This document shows, in pieces, positions 1-6,501 of a stretch of 6,501 nucleotides of DNA. The notes under the pieces were generated by a model, which was not told the origin of the DNA, did no database searches, and was given only the letters and a program-made list of their open reading frames with translations. Position 1 is the stretch's first letter; each line of letters opens with the position of its first letter. This DNA is from Chloroflexota bacterium (GTDB taxonomy: Bacteria > Chloroflexota > Anaerolineae > Promineifilales > Promineifilaceae), in contig QQUD01000079.1 of the NCBI GenBank assembly GCA_008501785.1, forward strand, positions 1 to 6,501, in the 5' to 3' direction. A program made the translations under genes and the position numbers.

Positions 1-453
1 GGTTGCCATCGCAGGCTGCGTTTTGATTTTGTATGTGTTCTTGCCCATACCGCTGTAAATCATGCACTGTGCCGTGACAAAATTGTCATCATCTAAATCA
101 AAATCAACACAAAAAGAAGCACATCCCATGCTCAATCGAGCCGCCACACGGGCTGAGATTTCCAAGCCAGGTTTGGTAGCCCCTACTAGGACCAAATCTG
201 GGTTCAGCTGTTCAATCACACCGGCTAATGCATCGGTGTAAGTTTCGGGGTTCAAACCAGCCAGCAGCGGGCTGGCGACAGTGTAAACGGCGTCCGCGCC
301 CCAAGTGCCTAATTCGGCCAGGTTTTCTGGGATTGATTCACCGAGATGGAGGGCGGAAACGGCCGTTTCCTTCTCATCTGCCACTTGTCGCGCTTTCCCC
401 AGCAGCTCACGGATAACTTGTTGCTTTTCAGAAAAAATTAAGATACCAGACAT
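1..453 (-). CDS. fixB: Electron transfer flavoprotein alpha subunit (EtfA/FixB), N-terminal part, cut by left window edge
   Basis: The 151 visible codons read MSGILIFSEKQQ at the start and stay open to base 1, so the C-terminal FAD-binding half lies outside the window. The N-terminus matches the EtfA domain I pattern: a short strand MSGILIF, a helix with LLGKARQVAD, then NPDLVLVGATKPGLEISARVAARL, the conserved 'PDLVL.GAT..G.ELAPRLAARL' segment. EtfA pairs with EtfB to carry FAD and shuttle electrons in the cytoplasm. The ATG shares its A with the TAA stop of etfB (TAATG), and a strong AAGGAGG ribosome site lies 6-7 bases upstream inside etfB, so the two subunits are translationally coupled. 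It contains one perfect copy of the dispersed palindrome (355-370), read as ETAVS. The EtfA assignment is firm. The fixB label, rather than plain etfA, is inferred from the neighbouring fixC and fixX. Confidence 0.93.
   Translation of the reverse strand, partial: MSGILIFSEKQQVIRELLGKARQVADEKETAVSALHLGESIPENLAELGTWGADAVYTVASPLLAGLNPETYTDALAGVIEQLNPDLVLVGATKPGLEISARVAARLSMGCASFCVDFDLDDDNFVTAQCMIYSGMGKNTYKIKTQPAMAT
355..370. repeat. Dispersed palindrome GGAAACGGCCGTTTCC in fixB
   Basis: A perfect 16-bp palindrome, read on the coding (minus) strand as GAA-ACG-GCC-GTT-TCC (ETAVS). Confidence 0.92.
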
Positions 454-1250
454 TAGGCACCTCCTTCGATGACATGATCTGCGACTAGCAAATCAACCAA
501 CTCATTCGACAACGCCGCCAGATCATTACCTTGCAGCACCTGCTGTTTGCGATGAACCACAACGCCTTCCGACTGTACTTTTTCCAAAGCCGCTTTTGGC
601 AGCAATTCATCGGTTGACATGCCTAAATCAGCTTCCACATTCCAGATGTGAACGGGCTTTTTCTTGGCCTTCATCGCTTGCAACAGCGTGGGCCGGCGTG
701 GTGTGTTCGTTTCTTCCATTACACTCAGCAATGAGGGCAACGATGCGGAAACCGTTTGCACACTGTCTTCCAAATCACGGTCTGCCACAACCTTGCCATC
801 TTCAACAGCTACGGTGCGCACGAATGAAATTTGGGGCATGTTTAGTGCTTCAGCCAAACGGGGTGGCACTTGATACGTGAACCCATCATCACTCACCTCA
901 CCACAAACAACCACATCGACATCACCCATCTTTTTGATCGTTTCGGCCAAAATGGCGGCGGTAACGGCGGGGGCCACGTGCCCTTCAACTGGATTTTCGA
1001 TGAGGGTCACATCTTCCACACCCATCGCCAACGCTTCGCGGAAGCTTTCTTTTGCTTTGGTGGGTCCGACGGTAATGGCGTGAACGGTGCCACCGTGGGC
1101 TTCTTTGAGCTGAACGGCCGTTTCCAACACATTCTTATCAATATTGCCCACTTTAAACGGCACACCCGCCATCTTCAATGCTTTGCTGGCCGGGTCAACC
1201 TTGACCTCTGATGCATCCAGCGAGTACTTAATACAGGCTACTATTTTCAC
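453..1250 (-). CDS. fixA: Electron transfer flavoprotein beta subunit (EtfB/FixA)
   Basis: This 265-residue protein is of normal EtfB length. It starts MKIVACIKYSLD, the usual 'MKI.VCIK...D' opening, followed by VKVDP (17-20). The family hallmark is VGPTKAKESFREALAMGVEDVTLI at residues 61-84, which helps bind the second nucleotide or FAD. A LxSLLSVMEE..TPRRPTLLQAMKAKKKP segment (about 171-199) is the conserved C-terminal EtfB stretch. The segment usually written 'G..(A/S)IDGDTGQVGP' appears here as GEVSDDGFTYQVPP (117-130), a clear variant. The start is GTG with AAGGAG 8 bases upstream. It lies between fixX and fixB, downstream of a large hairpin. With EtfA it forms the flavin-containing dimer that, in FixABCX complexes, oxidises NADH and bifurcates its electrons. 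Bifurcation is inferred from gene context, not proven by this sequence. Confidence 0.93.
   Translation of the reverse strand: MKIVACIKYSLDASEVKVDPASKALKMAGVPFKVGNIDKNVLETAVQLKEAHGGTVHAITVGPTKAKESFREALAMGVEDVTLIENPVEGHVAPAVTAAILAETIKKMGDVDVVVCGEVSDDGFTYQVPPRLAEALNMPQISFVRTVAVEDGKVVADRDLEDSVQTVSASLPSLLSVMEETNTPRRPTLLQAMKAKKKPVHIWNVEADLGMSTDELLPKAALEKVQSEGVVVHRKQQVLQGNDLAALSNELVDLLVADHVIEGGA
1113..1125. repeat. Dispersed palindrome in fixA, one arm decayed
   Basis: The 10-bp core AACGGCCGTT is perfect and one arm keeps TTTCC. The coding strand reads ETAV then Gln, in the same frame as the full copies. Confidence 0.75.
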
Positions 1251-1270
1251 AGTGCTATCTCCTTAACAGA

Positions 1271-1303
1271 AACCTCCGGGAGGTGCAGCACCTCCCGGAG
1301 GTT
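1271..1303. terminator. Perfect 16-bp-arm inverted repeat between fixX and fixA
   Basis: Two perfect 16-base arms, AACCTCCGGGAGGTGC and its complement, flank a single central base. Each arm is itself almost self-complementary (ACCTCC-G-GGAGGT), so alternative smaller hairpins can form. The element starts 9 bases after the fixX stop and ends about 20 bases before the fixA start, just ahead of its ribosome site. No run of T follows on either strand, so it is not a standard Rho-independent terminator. It may attenuate or stabilise the operon mRNA, or be a dispersed repeat that landed in the gap. The structure is certain and its role is inferred. Confidence 0.5.
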
Positions 1304-1312
1304 AATTTCAAC

Positions 1313-1606
1313 CTATCCATAACGAAAGACGATGCCAAAACCGCCTTGCGGGGGTCGCCAATCAATGCCGCCTTCACCGCCACCTTCACAGGCAACCGTG
1401 CAAGTGCCGCATTCTAGGCAGTTTTCGTAGCGCACAGCTACTTTTTCATCAGCCCACACATACACAGCCGCAGGGCATACCGTTAAACAAGGCTTCAATT
1501 CACATTTTTCACAGCAGCTATGGTCTACGCTGATGTGACTTTGTTCGTCAATCTCGTATTTATCTAATCCAAGACGATCATCCAGGCTCAATAATTTTTG
1601 GGTCAT
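1313..1606 (-). CDS. fixX: Ferredoxin-like protein FixX
   Basis: This 97-residue iron-sulfur protein receives electrons within the FixABCX/ETF-quinone oxidoreductase system. Two cysteine groups are visible: C32-x2-C35-x4-C40-x3-C44-P and C63-x2-C66-x2-C69-x3-C73. The ending IDWRPPQGGFGIVFRYG is the typical FixX tail ('I.W.YP.GGFG...R.G'), and YENCLECGTC (60-69) is equally diagnostic. The second group ends C73-Glu-Gly rather than the usual Cys-Pro, followed by a glycine-rich insert. One [4Fe-4S] cluster is certain for the family; eight cysteines would allow two. I start at the ATG whose sequence overlaps the fixC stop as ATGA, with AAAGGGG upstream, giving MTQKLLSLDDRL. A longer in-frame reading from 1654 would lie inside fixC and looks like an artefact. 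Confidence 0.93.
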   Translation of the reverse strand: MTQKLLSLDDRLGLDKYEIDEQSHISVDHSCCEKCELKPCLTVCPAAVYVWADEKVAVRYENCLECGTCTVACEGGGEGGIDWRPPQGGFGIVFRYG

Positions 1607-2895
1607 ATCGCCACCCCTTTCCCAATTTGATACATATCTTTGGCTACGTCCCACAGCGACACGTCATTTTCTTTCATGCGATCCCGCAGTGCCCGATACC
1701 CTTTCTTCCCAGGCTGCGTCTGCACCGAGAACATATCTTCCATGAGCGCACACACCATTTCGGGGTATGTATTGAACAAGCGCTTGTTTTCCAGCAGCGG
1801 ATATACGTCTTTAAACGTCTCCATATCTTTGTAGACTGACGTTTCTTTGAAATGTTGTTCATACGATGCCAAACCCGCAGCCGAGAAATCTTCGTTGGCT
1901 TTGGCATCAATGATGGCTTTGGCCGCCGCGACGGCAGAGGCAACGGCAACATCCATGCCGCGCAGTGTCATCACATTGTTCAGCAATAAGCGGGCCGCAC
2001 TGCCAGCCACCACGTAGCCATCACCAACCAGGTTTGGTATCAAATGGAAACCGCCGCGATGAACGGTTTGGGCAGAATATTCGACGACTTCGCCGCCGTT
2101 AATGAGTCGTTGCACAAAGGGATGTGATTTAAACTCGTCGAGGATTTCGTGAGGTTGTTTTTTACTCTTGTAAACGCTGTCAATTTTGACAACAACGCCT
2201 AGTGAAAGCGTGTCGCGGTTCGCGTAAATAAAACCGCCACCTTCTGCGCCAGCCGTATGACCAACCAGCGTATAAGCGGCACCTTCTTTTTCGTTCAAAC
2301 ATTGAAAGCGGTCGGTGATAGTTTGTTCTGGCAGTTTAATGACTTCTTTGATGCCAATGGACACATCTTTAGGTGCATAATCTTCGCGCAAGCCAGCTTG
2401 TTTGAGCAGCTGCGAGCGTGTGCCTTCGGCAATGATGGTGACACTGGCGCGGAGTTCGTCGCCGCCAGCTTTGACGCCGCAGATACGGCCGTTTTCCACA
2501 ATCAGCTCATCCACTGTGAATCCAGGCATCACCATTGCGCCCGCTTCTTCAGCTTGAGCAGCCAGCCACGGATCAAACTTGGCACGCAAAACGCTAAATG
2601 CGTTGTAGGGTGGCGCCACCGCTTCGTCACGGTAATCCATCGCCGTTGCCGCCGTATCGCCTAAAAAGACAACGCTGTGACCGGCAATGGCACGCTCTAC
2701 CGGGGCTTCGTCCCAAAAGTTCGGGAAAATCTCATCATAAATCTGGGCATAAATTAACCCACCGGAAACATTCTTGCTGCCCGGTTCTTGTCCACGTTCG
2801 ATGACAACAACAGACAAACCTGCTTTCGCTAACATGTAAGCGGCCGTCGCCCCAGCAGGACCCGCACCAACAATGATTACATCAAATTCATCCAC
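1603..2895 (-). CDS. fixC: FixC, FAD-dependent ETF-quinone oxidoreductase family protein
   Basis: FixC is a membrane-associated flavoprotein that passes electrons from the EtfAB dimer to the quinone pool. From the GTG start it has 430 residues, the normal FixC size. An N-terminal Rossmann motif GAGPAG (10-15) followed by E33 binds the ADP part of FAD. GSKNVSGGLIY and the late RGMDVAVASAVAAAKAI segment are typical of FixC and ETF-QO proteins. I prefer GTG at 2895 over ATG at 2940: it gives MDEFDVIIVGAGPAG, as in relatives, and has AAGG 6 bases upstream. The ATG would add 15 unfamiliar residues, and its GGAG lies only one base from the codon. An oddity is AGSAA near residue 297-301, where this fold usually has GDAA, the Asp contacting the FAD ribityl chain. 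The protein ends in an ATGA overlap with fixX and is the first gene of the operon. Confidence 0.93.
   Translation of the reverse strand: MDEFDVIIVGAGPAGATAAYMLAKAGLSVVVIERGQEPGSKNVSGGLIYAQIYDEIFPNFWDEAPVERAIAGHSVVFLGDTAATAMDYRDEAVAPPYNAFSVLRAKFDPWLAAQAEEAGAMVMPGFTVDELIVENGRICGVKAGGDELRASVTIIAEGTRSQLLKQAGLREDYAPKDVSIGIKEVIKLPEQTITDRFQCLNEKEGAAYTLVGHTAGAEGGGFIYANRDTLSLGVVVKIDSVYKSKKQPHEILDEFKSHPFVQRLINGGEVVEYSAQTVHRGGFHLIPNLVGDGYVVAGSAARLLLNNVMTLRGMDVAVASAVAAAKAIIDAKANEDFSAAGLASYEQHFKETSVYKDMETFKDVYPLLENKRLFNTYPEMVCALMEDMFSVQTQPGKKGYRALRDRMKENDVSLWDVAKDMYQIGKGVAI
2485..2497. repeat. Degraded dispersed palindrome in fixC
   Basis: The octamer ACGGCCGT is intact, with TTTTCC to one side only. The coding strand reads ENGRI, a different frame from the ETAVS copies. 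Confidence 0.5.
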
Positions 2896-3001
2896 TTTAT
2901 ACCTTACCTGTAAATTGCCGTGATACACCCTTTTAGGCATTCTCCACGGCTTAATTTCAAGGGAAATCGTTACTTGTGCAATTTATCACAGCCCCGATAA
3001 G

Positions 3002-3038
3002 GAACGCATAAACAAGGTATAAAGAAAGTGTAAGGATT
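3002..3038 (+). repeat. 37-bp direct repeat, copy 1
   Basis: It matches copy 2 (3293-3329) at 35 of 37 positions, with both differences being single substitutions. Read on the minus strand, it divides into three 11-bp units: TTACACTTTCT, TTATACCTTGT and TTATGCGTTCC. It sits about 100 bases upstream of the chosen fixC start. Confidence 0.9.
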
Positions 3039-3054
3039 GAATTGGGTGGTGGAA

Positions 3055-3069
3055 GAAACGGCCGTTTCC
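3055..3069. repeat. Dispersed palindrome GAAACGGCCGTTTC, intergenic copy
   Basis: The 14-bp palindrome is perfect and is followed by another C. It is one G short of the full 16-bp form on its left side. This copy lies outside any gene. Confidence 0.9.
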
Positions 3070-3090
3070 CTACCACTCCCACACATACCT

Positions 3091-3166
3091 GTAGGGGCGC
3101 ACCCTTGTGGTCGCCCTCTTATTGATCAAAAGGATGAAGAGGGCGGGCACAAGGCCACGCTCCTAC
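3091..3166. repeat. Long imperfect inverted repeat, REP/MITE-like
   Basis: Two 30-base arms (3091-3120 and 3137-3166) are complementary at 24 of 30 positions around a 16-base loop that itself contains the palindrome TTGATCAA. The arms begin GTAGGGGCGC and end in GCTCCTAC. Such GTAGGGGCG...CGCCCTAC hairpins are familiar to me as dispersed intergenic repeats in cyanobacteria and Chloroflexota, but I cannot test copy number here. No transposase is present. The unpaired bases are spread through the arms, as in an ageing mobile hairpin. Confidence 0.7.
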
Positions 3167-3281
3167 GATTGGTTCCGCTCAACTAACCAATTGTGACACT
3201 ACAATCCTTGACAATAAAATCATCGAGCTAGTTTCACTCTATAACGCAAATCAGTCGAGGAATTGCTTCAAACGGCAAAAA

Positions 3282-3298
3282 GCGTTCATTATGAACGC
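3282..3298. promoter_or_regulatory. Perfect 17-bp inverted repeat, operator-like
   Basis: GCGTTCAT and ATGAACGC flank one central T. The right arm overlaps the first six bases of the second 37-bp direct repeat. A short perfect dyad upstream of a gene fits a dimeric regulator site. No regulator is identifiable, so the role is inferred. Confidence 0.4.
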
Positions 3299-3329
3299 AT
3301 AAACAAGGTATAAACAAAGTATAAGGATT
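3293..3329 (+). repeat. 37-bp direct repeat, copy 2
   Basis: Second copy of the 3002-3038 element, 291 bases downstream in the same orientation. On the minus strand its three 11-bp units are TTATACTTTGT, TTATACCTTGT and TTATGCGTTCA. The first two differ by one base. It is about 110 bases upstream of the ATG at 3440. Confidence 0.9.
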
Positions 3330-3439
3330 CGTAGGTGGGGGGAATATCTAAGTTATCATAGTGGCGGAGTGGCAAACTTGGCAACCCCGAAACCTCGCAG
3401 CGCTCCCCTGAGAGCCATGCGCTTACCTGGATATAAAAA

Positions 3440-3649
3440 ATGGTTAACTCCGCTAAAATCAAATCTTTGGCGAAAGAAGATTTTCGTCATGCCCGTCGGC
3501 ATGTTGCCCTACAACAAGTGTACAATCGCATGATTGGCAAAGAAATCGAGGGATTGCTGTCCTTCCACGACGTGCGCCGTGCATTGCGAGTCAAAACCCA
3601 AATTGATCGCGGTCGGCAAACGACTAATCCATGCCATCGTTCCCAATGA
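3440..3649 (+). CDS. N-terminal segment of a frameshifted universal stress protein gene
   Basis: This 69-codon frame starts MVNSAKIKSLAKEDFRHARRH and continues ...LLSFHDVRRALRVKTQIDRGRQ before ending at TGA in an unrelated tail (TTNPCHRSQ). The charged helical sequence 'DF.HARR..LQ....R..G....LLSF.DVRRALR....RG.Q' looks like real protein. From memory it resembles the N-terminal helical module seen before ParB-like or Usp-type domains in Chloroflexota proteins. Moving to the next frame after RGRQ continues as LIHAIVPNEV and then the Usp domains, restoring a plausible single protein of about 344 residues. Either a one-base insertion (perhaps in AAA at 3618-3620) split the gene, or the two parts are made separately. 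The ATG has only a weak ribosome site (GGA about 9 bases upstream). Confidence 0.5.
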   Translation: MVNSAKIKSLAKEDFRHARRHVALQQVYNRMIGKEIEGLLSFHDVRRALRVKTQIDRGRQTTNPCHRSQ

Positions 3650-4475
3650 AGTGCAAACAGGGCTGGACAAGGGCGAGCGACAGCACCAACCTCTGGCTCG
3701 GCGCTATCCGGACAAGTTTTTCAATTATGTGCTGGTTCCCGTCGGTGACGATAATCAAATCTGGACTGGATTAGAACAGGCGATTGTCATTGCCCAACGT
3801 GAAAACAGTCAATTGCGCGGAATGCATATTGTGCCCAATGAGGCAGTGCTTGCAAGTCCTAACGCCCAGGCAGTTCAGGCAGAGTTTGATCGCCGCTGTC
3901 AAAATGCTGGGGTAAACGGCCGTCTTATCTTAAAAACCGGCTCTATCGCCCAAACAATTATTGACCGGGCACGTTGGAATGACCTTATCGTTATGAATCT
4001 GGCCCACCCGCCGGGTGAAACAATCGTTGACCGGCTCGGATCAGGTTTTCGCCTGGTAATTAAACACAGTAACCAACCGATTTTGGCCGTTCCCGGCACC
4101 GTTTCCCCCCTTGACAAAATGCTACTAGCTTACGATGGCAGTAATAACAGTAAAAAGGCTTTGTCCATAACTGCGTACCTGGTTAAGCAGTGGCAAGCGC
4201 AGCTTGTCGTTGTCACCGCCCATGAGAAGGAAGCGCCTGATCCAGTAATCATCGATTATGCCCGCCGTTACCTGGAACTGCATGAAATTGAAGCTGAATT
4301 TAAGATCGGGTCGGGGAAAGCGGCTGATGTGATTTTGGAAACGGCCGTTTCCCACCATTGCAACCTCATCATCATGGGTGGATACGGAGCACAGCCAGTC
4401 GTTGAAGTAGTCTTGGGCAGTCCAGTCAACGCGATCCTGCGGCGAACCCCTGTTCCGGTTCTAATTTGCCCTTAG
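3534..4475 (+). CDS. Tandem-domain universal stress protein (UspA family)
   Basis: This cytoplasmic stress protein has two Usp domains. Residues are numbered from the TTG at 3534. Domain 1 (about 62-187) opens FFNYVLVPVGDD and ends QPILAVP; its phosphate loop is degenerate (HPPGETIVDRLGSG). Domain 2 (about 194-313) opens DKMLLAYDGS and ends TPVPVLICP. It keeps the full ATP-binding signature G-x2-G-x9-G-S in MGGYGAQPVVEVVLGS (281-296), so ATP binding is likely there. The real start is unclear. The first 28 or so codons overlap the 3440 frame and look non-coding, and the TTG has no ribosome site. A GTG at 3651 lies one base after the upstream TGA and could serve by reinitiation. The best reading is a single gene from 3440 with a +1 shift near 3620. 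It contains one perfect dispersed palindrome (4337-4352). Confidence 0.82.
   Translation: MAKKSRDCCPSTTCAVHCESKPKLIAVGKRLIHAIVPNEVQTGLDKGERQHQPLARRYPDKFFNYVLVPVGDDNQIWTGLEQAIVIAQRENSQLRGMHIVPNEAVLASPNAQAVQAEFDRRCQNAGVNGRLILKTGSIAQTIIDRARWNDLIVMNLAHPPGETIVDRLGSGFRLVIKHSNQPILAVPGTVSPLDKMLLAYDGSNNSKKALSITAYLVKQWQAQLVVVTAHEKEAPDPVIIDYARRYLELHEIEAEFKIGSGKAADVILETAVSHHCNLIIMGGYGAQPVVEVVLGSPVNAILRRTPVPVLICP
3914..3924. repeat. Degraded dispersed palindrome in the stress-protein gene
   Basis: AAACGGCCGTC has an intact octamer core and one intact arm base pair set. It is read as VNGRL. Confidence 0.45.
4337..4352. repeat. Dispersed palindrome GGAAACGGCCGTTTCC in the stress-protein gene
   Basis: A perfect 16-bp copy read as ETAVS within the second Usp domain, just before the segment CNLIIMGGYG. 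Confidence 0.92.
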
Positions 4476-4533
4476 AAATGGGATTTATACATTGTATGCA
4501 GTTGATATACAGGCTGAAAGATTGGTGTTGTTG

Positions 4534-4539
4534 TATAAT
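4534..4539 (+). promoter_or_regulatory. Candidate -10 box for the membrane protein gene
   Basis: A perfect TATAAT stands 72 bases before the ATG at 4611 in the AT-rich gap after the stress-protein gene. No good -35 occurs 16-18 bases upstream; TTGATA at 4502-4507 is too far. It suggests separate transcription of the membrane protein gene. Evidence rests on the one hexamer. Confidence 0.4.
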
Positions 4540-4610
4540 CCAGCAGACACTATTGAATTTTTTACACATTGCACTTACCTAAAAGGTGAAAGTTATTGGG
4601 GGAGTATTCC

Positions 4611-5357
4611 ATGGATATTGCAAAAGCTTTTGGTTACATTAGCGAAGACGAAAATTGGTATAAAAAGTTAGGGATAGGCGTTGGCGTATTTATTGTGCCG
4701 ATTCTCAACTTTGCGCTAGCTGGCTACATTTTTCAGCTTATGCGCAACGTAAGGAATGGGGAAAAACGGCCGTTACCCGAATGGAGTGATCTCAGCCGTT
4801 ATCTAACAGATGGACTGCGTATGTTCGTTGTGATGCTCATCTACTCACTTCCAATACTCATCATTTACGGCATCGCGATGGCTATCTTTTTTTCACAAAT
4901 GCTCAGCAGCGAGTTTGCAGCATCCAGCACAGGCGGCCCCCCATCTATTGATCAGGCCCCTGCATTTATAGCTATTTGGGGCATCATGGCTGCATGTGTC
5001 ATGCCATATAGTTTGCTGCTCCAAGTTATGACACCTATGTTTGCTATGCAATTGGTTCGTGAAGGTACAATAAAATCATGTTTTGAATATAAAGAGATGT
5101 GGCAAATACTCAAAACAAATATTTGGGATTATGTGATCATTTTGGGCCTGACGCTGGGTTTATATCTAGTATCATCCATCGTCCTCATTCCGGCGTATCT
5201 TTTCTTTTTTATCCCTTGTATTGGCACGATCATTGGCATGGCATTAATGGGCGCAGTCAGCATACTGATTATTTTTGTGGTTGGACATCTCTTAGGCCAA
5301 TTTATGGCAAAACACGATGCGAAACAACCCCCAGCGACTGAATTTGGAATTGTTTAG
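4611..5357 (+). CDS. Multi-pass membrane protein, DUF4013-like
   Basis: This 248-residue integral membrane protein has no known enzymatic motif. Hydrophobic segments lie at about 20-44, 68-96, 117-146, 172-200 and 203-231, giving about five helices. There is a charged N-terminus (MDIAKAFGYISEDENWYKK) and a polar tail rich in K, Q and P. The pattern 'DENW.KKLGIG....IPILNF...GY..QL.RNV..G...PLPEW.D' is what I associate with DUF4013 proteins of archaea and Chloroflexota, whose function is unknown. I chose the ATG at 4611 because GGGGGAG lies 6 bases upstream; a TTG at 4596 in the same frame overlaps that ribosome site. It stands alone, 135 bases after the stress-protein gene, and converges on the peptidase gene. 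Codon 51-55 (EKRPL) covers a degraded dispersed palindrome. Confidence 0.85.
   Translation: MDIAKAFGYISEDENWYKKLGIGVGVFIVPILNFALAGYIFQLMRNVRNGEKRPLPEWSDLSRYLTDGLRMFVVMLIYSLPILIIYGIAMAIFFSQMLSSEFAASSTGGPPSIDQAPAFIAIWGIMAACVMPYSLLLQVMTPMFAMQLVREGTIKSCFEYKEMWQILKTNIWDYVIILGLTLGLYLVSSIVLIPAYLFFFIPCIGTIIGMALMGAVSILIIFVVGHLLGQFMAKHDAKQPPATEFGIV
4762..4777. repeat. Degraded dispersed palindrome in the membrane protein gene
   Basis: AAAAACGGCCGTTACC keeps the AACGGCCGTT core. It is read in the third frame, as KRPLP, in a cytoplasmic loop. Confidence 0.5.
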
Positions 5358-5384
5358 CTGGTGATGAGTAAATATTAAATGGTA

Positions 5385-5414
5385 GCTGGTGGGAAACGGC
5401 CGTTTTCCACCAGC
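5385..5414. terminator. 30-bp palindrome between convergent genes
   Basis: GCTGGTGG and its complement extend a copy of the dispersed palindrome, giving a 30-bp inverted repeat with a single G/T mismatch pair (a G-U wobble in RNA). It lies 27 bases after the membrane protein stop and 18 bases beyond the peptidase stop, so either transcript can fold it. No T-run follows on either side, so bidirectional termination is plausible but not textbook. Confidence 0.5.
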
Positions 5415-5432
5415 AATGCTTCCAATGCCTTG

Positions 5433-6501
5433 TCAATGCCGCTTCAATATATCTAACGCAAGTTCAATCTGTTTCTCGTGAAAAGCAATCGTCTCAGCAG
5501 CACTAACCTCACCGTGACCCGCATCAAACCAAAGCACCTCAATCTGCTTGCCCGACGCTTTCATGCCGGCTTCAAATTGCTCCATTTGTCGTGGCGTTGT
5601 GCGGGTGTCGTTATGTCCTTGAATAACAAGCAATGGCGCACTGATGCTTTCTAAATATGTAGCTGGGGAACTGTTTACATACCGTTCACGAACTTCTGCT
5701 GGCGAGCCACCGTGCCACATGCGAAAGGCACCTTTCATGGCATCCGTGGCATCTTCATAATTGGCGACCCAATCAGCAATAGCAACGACTGCCAGCCCGC
5801 CTGCCCATAAATCTGGCCGACGAGCCAGCCCCCACAATGTTAAATAGCCGCCATAGGAAGCGCCACTCAGAAAAATAGCGTTTGTCTGGGCAATTTCATT
5901 TTCAACAAGCCAATCGCGGGCTGCCACCATATCTTCTAGCTCCCAATGCCCCAGATTTCCCCAAATTTGGCTTTTAAACGCATCTCCAAATCCAGTGGAG
6001 CCGCGAAAATTAATGCTTAAAAAAGCAAACCCATGATCGAGCCAGGCTTGAACATCGGGATCAAAAATGGACCGCTTTTGATAGTGTGGGCCTCCGTGCA
6101 TGTTCAGGATAGTGGGGAAGGGGCCAGTCCCTCCAGGAACAGCAAGCCACCCCTGAATCAGGGTGCCGTCTGATGAGGTGTACGTGATTGATTGCCATGG
6201 ACGTGCGGAAACGGCCGTTTCCGGTCCAACAATCGTGTGCATCTTCTCGCCAGTGCGTCTATCTAGCTCAATAAGTTGTGAAGACTGTGTGCCACTTTGC
6301 CAGAGTGCCACAATGTTGTTATTGGGCAAAAAGTGGGCAAACGTGCCAAATGGCCCGATTGAGCGTTCGTAGACACCAGGAGGATGATTTAATTTGGTTA
6401 ACGTTTGGGTCTGCAAGTTGAAGGTATAAAGCTGCTGCTGTGTCCGGTAAGAATGGCAAAGGAGCAGATTGTGGCCATCGATTGACCAATCCCAGGCTAA
6501 C
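5433..6501 (-). CDS. S9-family prolyl oligopeptidase-like serine peptidase, C-terminal part, cut by right window edge
   Basis: The frame is open to the window edge, with the first full codon at 6500, so the visible 355 residues lack the true start. A TTG at 6416 is internal, not the start. Residues before about 6200 (LAWDWSIDGHNLLLCHS..., LYTFNLQTQTLT, NNNIVALWQSGTQSSQLIELDRRTG) look like the last blades of the N-terminal beta-propeller. The alpha/beta-hydrolase domain follows from SDGTLIQGWLAVP. It shows the HGGP oxyanion motif, the nucleophile in GASYGG (Ser codon 5858-5856), the acid in QGHNDTRT (Asp codon 5609-5607) and the base in DAGHGE (His codon 5516-5514). All three catalytic residues are in order, so the enzyme should be active on peptides or acyl-peptides. 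No signal peptide can be judged. It converges on the membrane protein gene and carries a perfect dispersed palindrome read as ETAVS. Confidence 0.92.
   Translation of the reverse strand, partial: LAWDWSIDGHNLLLCHSYRTQQQLYTFNLQTQTLTKLNHPPGVYERSIGPFGTFAHFLPNNNIVALWQSGTQSSQLIELDRRTGEKMHTIVGPETAVSARPWQSITYTSSDGTLIQGWLAVPGGTGPFPTILNMHGGPHYQKRSIFDPDVQAWLDHGFAFLSINFRGSTGFGDAFKSQIWGNLGHWELEDMVAARDWLVENEIAQTNAIFLSGASYGGYLTLWGLARRPDLWAGGLAVVAIADWVANYEDATDAMKGAFRMWHGGSPAEVRERYVNSSPATYLESISAPLLVIQGHNDTRTTPRQMEQFEAGMKASGKQIEVLWFDAGHGEVSAAETIAFHEKQIELALDILKRH
6206..6223. repeat. Dispersed palindrome in the peptidase gene, 18-bp form
   Basis: CGGAAACGGCCGTTTCCG is an 18-bp perfect palindrome. The coding strand reads PETAVSA, in the linker between the propeller and hydrolase domains. 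Confidence 0.92.

Follow-up and report, generated by a model that had tools for sequence, protein, structure and literature searches.

A HIP1-type highly iterated palindrome with a CGGCCG core in Anaerolineae, and a methyltransferase that may read it

The closest described system is HIP1 (GCGATCGC), the highly iterated palindrome (HIP) of cyanobacteria, reportedly described in 1995. To our knowledge it still has no agreed function and stands as one case in one phylum. Chi, to which a palindrome of this kind might also be likened, is strand-asymmetric and sparser than ACGGCCGT, the octamer considered here. HIP1 and the alternate HIPs of cyanobacteria are treated by Elhai (2015, PMC4390886), and HIP1 sites are described as formed in situ and placed randomly (PMC3025956). 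No genome-wide bacterial ACGGCCGT motif emerged from the literature, judged by titles and the openings of abstracts, and no Chloroflexi/Chloroflexota highly iterated palindrome or CGGCCG over-representation was found either, with most subscription papers lying outside both searches. The listings retrieved for NotI/EagI homology held nothing useful, and the accessible part of a sludge methylation study (PMC12772301) names no GGCC motif.

The window, that is, the whole 6.5 kb stretch of DNA analyzed, contains nine copies of ACGGCCGT, against a mean of 0.08 and a maximum of two in 200 dinucleotide shuffles; the density in the window's own genome is known from these 6.5 kb alone. All nine starts listed by the first-pass annotation are exact (Table 1), and its three perfect 16-mers around the octamer are located there as well. 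It had also counted two near-perfect 16-mers, missing by one base or by an inserted T. Both copies are present, and each is a one-base difference. As it claimed, copies occur in every gene over 300 bp and in two gaps, with seven sites genic and two intergenic; a short ferredoxin ORF has none. Of 17 aligned DUF4013 homologues, counting the protein of the window itself, 10 have the RPLP stretch that lies at the site, and the homologues that bear an organism name are from Chloroflexota.

Table 1. Genes of the window and positions of the octamer
Feature	Position	Strand	Remarks
Electron transfer flavoprotein alpha subunit, partial (etfA)	1..453	-	PF01012
Electron transfer flavoprotein beta subunit (etfB)	453..1250	-	PF01012
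FixC-like ETF-quinone oxidoreductase	1603..2940	-	PF21162; 87% identity to L001 protein
Universal stress protein family (Usp)	3534..4475	+	PF00582
DUF4013 membrane protein	4596..5357	+	PF13197
S9 peptidase, partial	5433..6500	-	PF00326
ACGGCCGT	359..366	.	in etfA, ETAVS frame; core of perfect 16-mer 355-370; intact at orthologous position of L001
ACGGCCGT	1114..1121	.	in etfB; intact in L001
ACGGCCGT	2485..2492	.	in fixC-like (ETF-quinone oxidoreductase) gene; intact in L001
ACGGCCGT	3058..3065	.	intergenic; 16-mer 3054-3069 with one mismatch; intact in L001 despite differing flanks
ACGGCCGT	3916..3923	.	in Usp-family gene, NGR frame
ACGGCCGT	4341..4348	.	in Usp-family gene; core of perfect 16-mer 4337-4352
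ACGGCCGT	4766..4773	.	in DUF4013 gene, RP frame, at RPLP stretch
ACGGCCGT	5396..5403	.	intergenic; 16-mer 5392-5407 with one mismatch
ACGGCCGT	6211..6218	.	in S9 peptidase gene; core of perfect 16-mer 6207-6222

The nearest relative compared (Anaerolineae, FixC 87% identity) carries 7,806 copies of ACGGCCGT in its 4.9 Mb, where the reversed word occurs 176 times. According to whole-genome counts, 27 of 98 relatives hold the octamer at 0.99-2.10 per kb. Pooled, these A-type genomes contain 254,604 sites versus 4,910 of the reversed word, and 1.02 Mb drawn from them yields 1,708 observed copies against 24.6 expected from an order-3 Markov model with the motif masked, an excess of about 69-fold. 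The first-pass proposal of a genome-wide, HIP1-like palindrome of different sequence therefore holds in relatives on whole-genome counts, Markov background and orthologous loci alike, and the whole-genome counts exclude, for these relatives, an enrichment limited to the window. The 16-mer does not hold up as the genome-wide unit, with 0-117 copies per genome in the 98 relatives, whereas the octamer runs to thousands in the 27; the unit is the octamer. Bases outside the eight vary by genome (AACGGCCGTT in G001, CACGGCCGTG in G048). Spacing is indistinguishable from random except for a deficit below 20 bp. Copies are found in all three reading frames and between genes, although most are genic and favor the TAV and RP frames.

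Once present, the sites are rarely lost. When one 20-kb stretch is set against four relatives at 84-93% identity, 132 of 138 sites prove to be intact: 30/30, 35/36, 34/36 and 33/36 as identity falls from 93 to 84%, where control octamers of the same composition are kept at fractions of 0.67-0.30. The conserved element is eight bases wide, and conservation falls sharply outside it. In these comparisons a site that exists is shielded against loss at each of its eight bases, whether it lies in a gene, between genes or in a phage. Among 29 variable site positions, 27 align without gaps, one has a 1-base and one a 3-base gap, and there are no 8-base insertions; likewise, 15 sites present in G024 but lost in some relative show no 8-base gaps, in a comparison that is blind to insertions present only in a relative. 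As judged from these alignments, point mutation creates the sites where they stand, and the differences at variable sites are substitutions. A mobile, selfish short palindrome, one of the earlier suggestions, is disfavored by the gap-free positions and the lack of 8-base insertions. Words that differ from the motif at an outer position are raised in A-type genomes (TCGGCCGT 4.28x, GCGGCCGT 2.21x) and also in control genomes (1.72x and 1.52x), while core one-off words are near background (0.70 versus 0.79 in controls), so that no direct trace of conversion into the motif is seen. A depletion of core one-offs seen in two genomes was dropped as evidence, given the similar value in control genomes.

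Other lineages use other genome-wide words, namely TCGGCCGA, GCGGCCGC, bare CGGCCG or TGCCGGCA. For example, G033 carries TCGGCCGA, its sister G019 has bare CGGCCG, and G016 has GCGGCCGC. What they have in common is the core CGGCCG, and the outer base pair varies as a dialect from lineage to lineage. In an rpoB tree of 28 genomes, which leaves out G004 (no match) and G005 (fragment), the A-type genomes form one clade with one nested loss; G023 is a motif loser within this clade.

The reader of the octamer may well be a DNA-methylating enzyme of the restriction type. Weak, split hits to PF01555 led to a methyltransferase of ~660 aa that is found in 11 of 12 octamer genomes versus 3 of 9 others searched in the same way (p=0.009 without kinship correction), an association confounded by shared ancestry. 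The 21 genomes compared, selected in part because their lists of PF01555 hits were short, take in 10 of the 27 A-type genomes; of the other 17, G002 and G031 surfaced through NotI hits. The sisters G033 and G019 form a contrast pair, with the gene found in the former and not in the latter. Nor was it found in the motif loser G023, in the fragmented A-type genome G005, or in four of five bare-CGGCCG genomes (G008, G019, G028 and G035), where it consequently cannot explain the core. G030, which is without the motif, has the gene, cut at a contig end.

In three motif-bearing genomes (G002, G031 and G016), a PF12183 NotI-family endonuclease gene lies ~35 bp upstream of the methyltransferase gene. 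The genome-wide palindrome of G016, GCGGCCGC, is the NotI site. G074 shows the endonuclease-methyltransferase pairing with a 37% homologue, and in G062 and G067 the PF12183 gene adjoins a D12-type methyltransferase gene instead. The endonuclease alone was rejected as a tracker of the motif, as PF12183 matches occur in only 7 of 59 genomes and are lacking in the other 52. PDB sequence searches with two NotI-family proteins returned no match. The gene neighborhood lends circumstantial support to the methylation/restriction link that had been suggested for the palindrome; methylation itself, and its driving of abundance, we infer.

The predicted fold of the candidate is that of a class-I methyltransferase, with the DNA methyltransferase CcrM as best Foldseek match and tRNA methyltransferases as best VIA matches. 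Neither the fold nor the DPPY motif distinguishes amino-methyltransferases of DNA from those of RNA. The methyltransferase tree leaves 6 of 14 forks open and decides nothing. A single-sequence query of IMG/VR did not find the enzyme; an alignment query retrieved distant relatives at 30 loci, with 22-35% identity in the long matches. NurA adjoins the methyltransferase in 5 of the 11 loci having downstream sequence.

Taken as whole families, methyltransferases do not track the motif. PF00145, searched in 98 genomes, was rejected with no match in 13 of the 27 A-type genomes. One PF00145 cluster of eight loci comes entirely from motif-bearing genomes when the best locus per genome is compared, and two of its five members scanned match NCBIfam PRK10458 (DNA cytosine methylase) best, below the cut-off; this cluster may still be involved. 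PF02086, searched in 59 genomes, was set aside because 29 of 30 compared loci form one group across all motif types, genomes with none included; one member of this group matches the Dam family. Strong PF01555 hits were discarded too, since they also occur in motif-free genomes among the matches listed. The bare-CGGCCG genome G008 has no match to PF00145, PF02086 or PF01555.

The explanation we favor, and regard as evenly poised when taken as a whole, is that ACGGCCGT is the HIP of an Anaerolineae clade, read by the ~660-aa methyltransferase and favored via a process that reads methylation. Most likely, the octamer would be the recognition sequence of this amino-type DNA methyltransferase, which appears to be usually solitary and in some genomes still paired with the NotI-family endonuclease. 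More speculatively, the methylated site may be favored by a DNA process that reads the methylation. This would be either repair directed by strand or a safeguard against an end-processing nuclease, for example the NurA encoded beside the methyltransferase in several genomes. Such a process might both retain sites and catch new ones. We also entertain, as an unlikely but tenable version, a chromosome-wide epigenetic self-mark, written on NCGGCCGN by an orphan NotI-type methyltransferase and read by end-processing machinery of NurA type that is coupled to it. Host and adapted phages would then be driven to one site every few hundred bases, and changes in the methyltransferase would shift the outer-base dialect.

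Phages bear on the alternatives. Eleven phage-like IMG/VR records contain 794 ACGGCCGT sites in 447 kb (1.1-2.5 per kb), a density that equals or exceeds that of chromosomes, and the motif is common to 50 of 59 homologous phage positions; loci with related terminases are motif-rich in only 2 of 20 cases. For comparison, of two phages viewed over 40 kb each, Nostoc phage A1 has abundant HIP1 and Anabaena phage A-4L has none. That phage-like records carry and share the motif points to a process to which all resident DNA is subject. The density in phage-like records, the shared positions and the terminase loci, together with the NurA-domain genes flanking the candidate methyltransferase, favor a selected self-mark. 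The palindrome would then keep a degradative nuclease off resident DNA, meaning the chromosome and adapted phages, or mark that DNA for recombination, Chi-like but readable in both directions and with methylation optional. We nevertheless hold this to be improbable, since known Chi sites are non-palindromic and sparser, and random spacing calls for no periodic function.

Still less probable is a DNA uptake drive. Here a competence receptor would bind the palindrome by preference, and preferential uptake would spread and preserve motif alleles, with dialects like those of Neisseriaceae. The density, in-place creation and strong conservation resemble what is described of uptake sequences (PMC1939737), and dialects on a fixed core have their like there too, but according to that paper uptake sequences are not palindromes, and phages, which should not need the motif, carry and share it. 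We rate marginally lower the binding site of a nucleoid-organizing or segregation protein under direct selection, also proposed by the first-pass annotation: a palindrome is a natural dimer site and is conserved here across coding and non-coding DNA, yet random spacing beyond 20 bp and phage-like records as dense as chromosomes disfavor it. A pure mutational or codon-usage artefact without any reader, to which the genic bias and favored TAV and RP frames might point, is very improbable in view of the ~69-fold excess over background, the occurrence in all frames and between genes, the rarity in the 27 A-type genomes of the reversed palindrome, equal in composition, and the abrupt drop in conservation outside eight bases, and is contradicted unless a mutational context effect spans eight bases.

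Several known systems resemble the motif in part. As in NotI/EagI-type restriction-modification, a PF12183 gene lies directly upstream of the candidate methyltransferase in three genomes; unlike in such systems, the endonuclease is rare and the genomes are vastly enriched in the sites instead of avoiding them, so restriction does not explain the genome-wide motif. With the uptake sequences of Neisseriaceae and Pasteurellaceae it shares a frequency of about one per kb, origin by point mutation, conservation against flanks and dialects, but as a perfect palindrome ACGGCCGT does not belong to that class. Like Chi, it is a short over-represented word with lineage-specific versions that may be linked to an end-processing nuclease; lacking orientation, as any palindrome does, it is set apart from Chi sites.

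The motif belongs with the highly iterated palindromes of HIP1 type, here in another phylum. In relatives it shows the gross genome-wide excess, a frequency in the 500-2500 per Mb range, occurrence in coding and non-coding DNA with no regular spacing, in-situ origin by substitution and deviations concentrated at the first and last positions; the encoded methyltransferase is a candidate by gene neighborhood and co-occurrence only. Being GC-rich and randomly placed, with a like density, departures from the word mostly at its outer positions, alternate palindromes in related lineages and a proposed methyltransferase link, it parallels HIP1 as portrayed in PMC4390886. A second system with another core and phylum, and with dialects and losses, is an independent replicate for comparative hypothesis tests, and the methylation hypothesis becomes testable now that a specific gene, with a NotI-family partner, can be named as candidate. 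It is not HIP1 in the strict sense: the core is CGGCCG, the organisms are Chloroflexota, and the candidate reader is another kind of methyltransferase. Whereas the exceptional HIPs of cyanobacteria are described as sporadic, one dialect is common here to a whole deep clade.

The window encodes etfA, etfB, a ferredoxin ORF, and fixC-like, Usp-family, DUF4013 and S9 peptidase genes. Its fixC-like protein shares 87% identity with the counterpart in Anaerolineae bacterium bin30017, and all DUF4013 homologs with an organism name are from Chloroflexota; judged by these protein similarities, the window is therefore Chloroflexota sequence. The first-pass annotation correctly counted nine copies of the octamer ACGGCCGT, for which shuffled sequences yield an expectation of 0.08, and the 16-mer around it does occur as three perfect copies and two more that are one base off. 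Its treatment of the 16-mer as the repeated unit is wrong, as the nearest relative (G001, 4.9 Mb) carries 37 perfect 16-mers vs 7,806 octamers. The reversed word TGCCGGCA has 176 copies in that genome.

The octamer reaches 0.99 to 2.10 copies per kb in 27 of 98 related genomes, which together contain 254,604 copies vs 4,910 reversed words. Three others have 0.42 to 0.51 per kb and the remainder at most 0.18; densities were tabulated for the first 52 genomes, and the other 46 each hold no more than 408 copies by genome-wide count. Over 1.02 Mb from the 27 rich genomes, 1,708 octamers are observed vs 24.6 expected (order-3 Markov, motif masked), the sampled stretches being picked by position or around methyltransferase or rpoB genes; for G001 some were drawn from contigs already known to carry the 16-mer, a slight selection. 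The octamer is the most frequent of all 8-mers in the G048 sample. Across 220 kb of that genome, site spacing is random (CV 1.07, random range 0.91-1.09), with too few pairs closer than 20 bp (6 vs 22 expected). By crude ORF calls, sites fall in all three reading frames, at 2.36 per kb genic and 1.36 intergenic in G048, and 1.82 and 1.69 in G001.

Individual sites are strongly conserved. All four sites in the 3.1 kb aligned between the window and its relative L001 (77.5% identity) are intact, one of them intergenic, and L001 has three extra sites. For a 20-kb stretch of G024, four relatives at 93 to 84% identity keep 30/30, 35/36, 34/36 and 33/36 sites (the same sites counted again in each relative), vs 0.67, 0.48, 0.30 and 0.33 for octamers of the same composition. 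Identity in these relatives is 92 to 100% at the eight motif positions and 67 to 90% just outside. Retention is 10 of 21 sites at 75% identity (control 0.11); comparisons at about 70% retain 6/10, 3/7, 4/7, 5/8 and 1/2 (control 0.08-0.13). Site positions are variable in 29 of 50 cases across six genomes, through substitutions plus one 1-base and one 3-base gap; words one base off are clearly enriched at the outer positions only. Stretch L170 of G024 contains a repeat of about 80 bp, unrelated to the octamer, with many copies in both orientations in G036 and G050.

Other relatives keep the CGGCCG core with a different outer pair: TCGGCCGA in sampled stretches of G010 and G033, and GCGGCCGC in those of G016. 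Six genomes (G008, G019, G028, G039, G044 and G047) enrich bare CGGCCG with mixed outer bases, 3.8- to 8.9-fold over order-2 expectation. G013 is a complete motif switch: TGCCGGCA is its genome-wide palindrome (3,665 copies) and CGGCCG is down to 0.1 of expectation. Samples of 21 to 24 kb from G012, G023 and G030 contain no clear palindrome; genome-wide, G023 has 886 copies of TGCCGGCA (0.19 per kb) and may be a weaker case of the same switch. An rpoB tree built from 28 genomes requires two changes for the 11 rows with ACGGCCGT, vs 8.7 with shuffled labels; these rows form one clade in which G023 is nested as a loss. The TCGGCCGA genomes cluster with one of the bare-CGGCCG genomes. Separately, GCWGC is nearly purged in G016 (0.03-0.04 of expectation; L056-L058 and other stretches) while GCGGCCGC is enriched, and in G075 (L068 and others) GATC occurs at 0.01 of its expected frequency and GGCC at 0.05.

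The motif also occurs in phage-like DNA. A 16-mer scan of IMG/VR hit 29 stretches in 22 records, 15 of which were counted whole. The 11 chosen as rich-looking have 26 to 135 octamers each, at 1.06 to 2.54 per kb; their combined 447 kb contains 794 octamers vs 16 reversed words. The four chosen as poor-looking have 1 to 5. Among the seven known by stretches alone, two are rich, with 8 and 10 octamers, and the other five contain one or two each. Proteins recognized in one rich record are a terminase, a portal protein and, weakly, a minor head protein, and in another an endolysin and a primase; two of the 11 have an integrase. Only two of 20 related-terminase loci are rich in the motif; both belong to records that the 16-mer scan had already returned, one being the query's own. 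Homologous phage segments at 70 to 93% identity share 50 of 59 positions, with identity of 95 to 100% at the eight positions, 92 to 93% at the next bases and 71 to 86% further out. Counted both ways, 48/49, 44/48 and 24/29 sites are kept as identity falls, while octamers of equal composition give 0.55, 0.30 and 0.05. The alignments behind these phage counts are short and local, and some genes recur across several pairs, so the sites counted are not independent. The motif-rich record L283 carries two DNA methyltransferase genes itself, and neither product is close to the bacterial enzymes compared.

ACGGCCGT is almost certainly a highly iterated palindrome (HIP)-class element. We lean toward the candidate methyltransferase, a predicted amino-type enzyme of about 660 residues, as its reader; that methylation drives its abundance is a tentative proposal that we rather doubt. 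A NurA-mediated repair or protection process might act on the motif, a guess from gene order. Because phages carry the motif, a process acting on all DNA in the cell is favored. A methyltransferase homolog in octamer-poor G074 may have a different specificity.

Coordinates of features in related genomes and phage-like records
Feature	Source	Stretch	Position	Strand
DNA methyltransferase	Phage-like record	L283	9695-10948	-
DNA methyltransferase	Phage-like record	L283	93-998	+
Repeat	G024	L170	about 8284-8365	
760-aa ORF after candidate methyltransferase, by eye resembling a GHKL-ATPase protein	G029	L345	2614-4893	+
Methyltransferase homolog (37%) adjoining NotI-family gene	G074	L360	560-2776	+

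The cyanobacterial HIP1 likewise occurs in phage: Nostoc phage A1 has 23 copies in 40 kb, where base composition predicts 0.16, and Anabaena phage A-4L has none in 40 kb. Within Anaerolineae, GCWGC is another abundant methylated word, since the data tabulated for BD1 (CL500-11) in PMC6329791 give m4C at 72,730 of 77,932 sites, a total that we compute from the listed GC content and genome size to be about fourfold the base-composition expectation. The ratchet proposed by Elhai, in the portion of PMC4390886 that sets it out, requires a G preceding the methylated C. The first part of that proposal would be matched here by the NotI-type candidate. As outlined there, the ratchet leaves the outer A, T or G of the present motif unexplained, because GC already lies within GGCC; the choice of outer base would therefore have to come from the enzyme.
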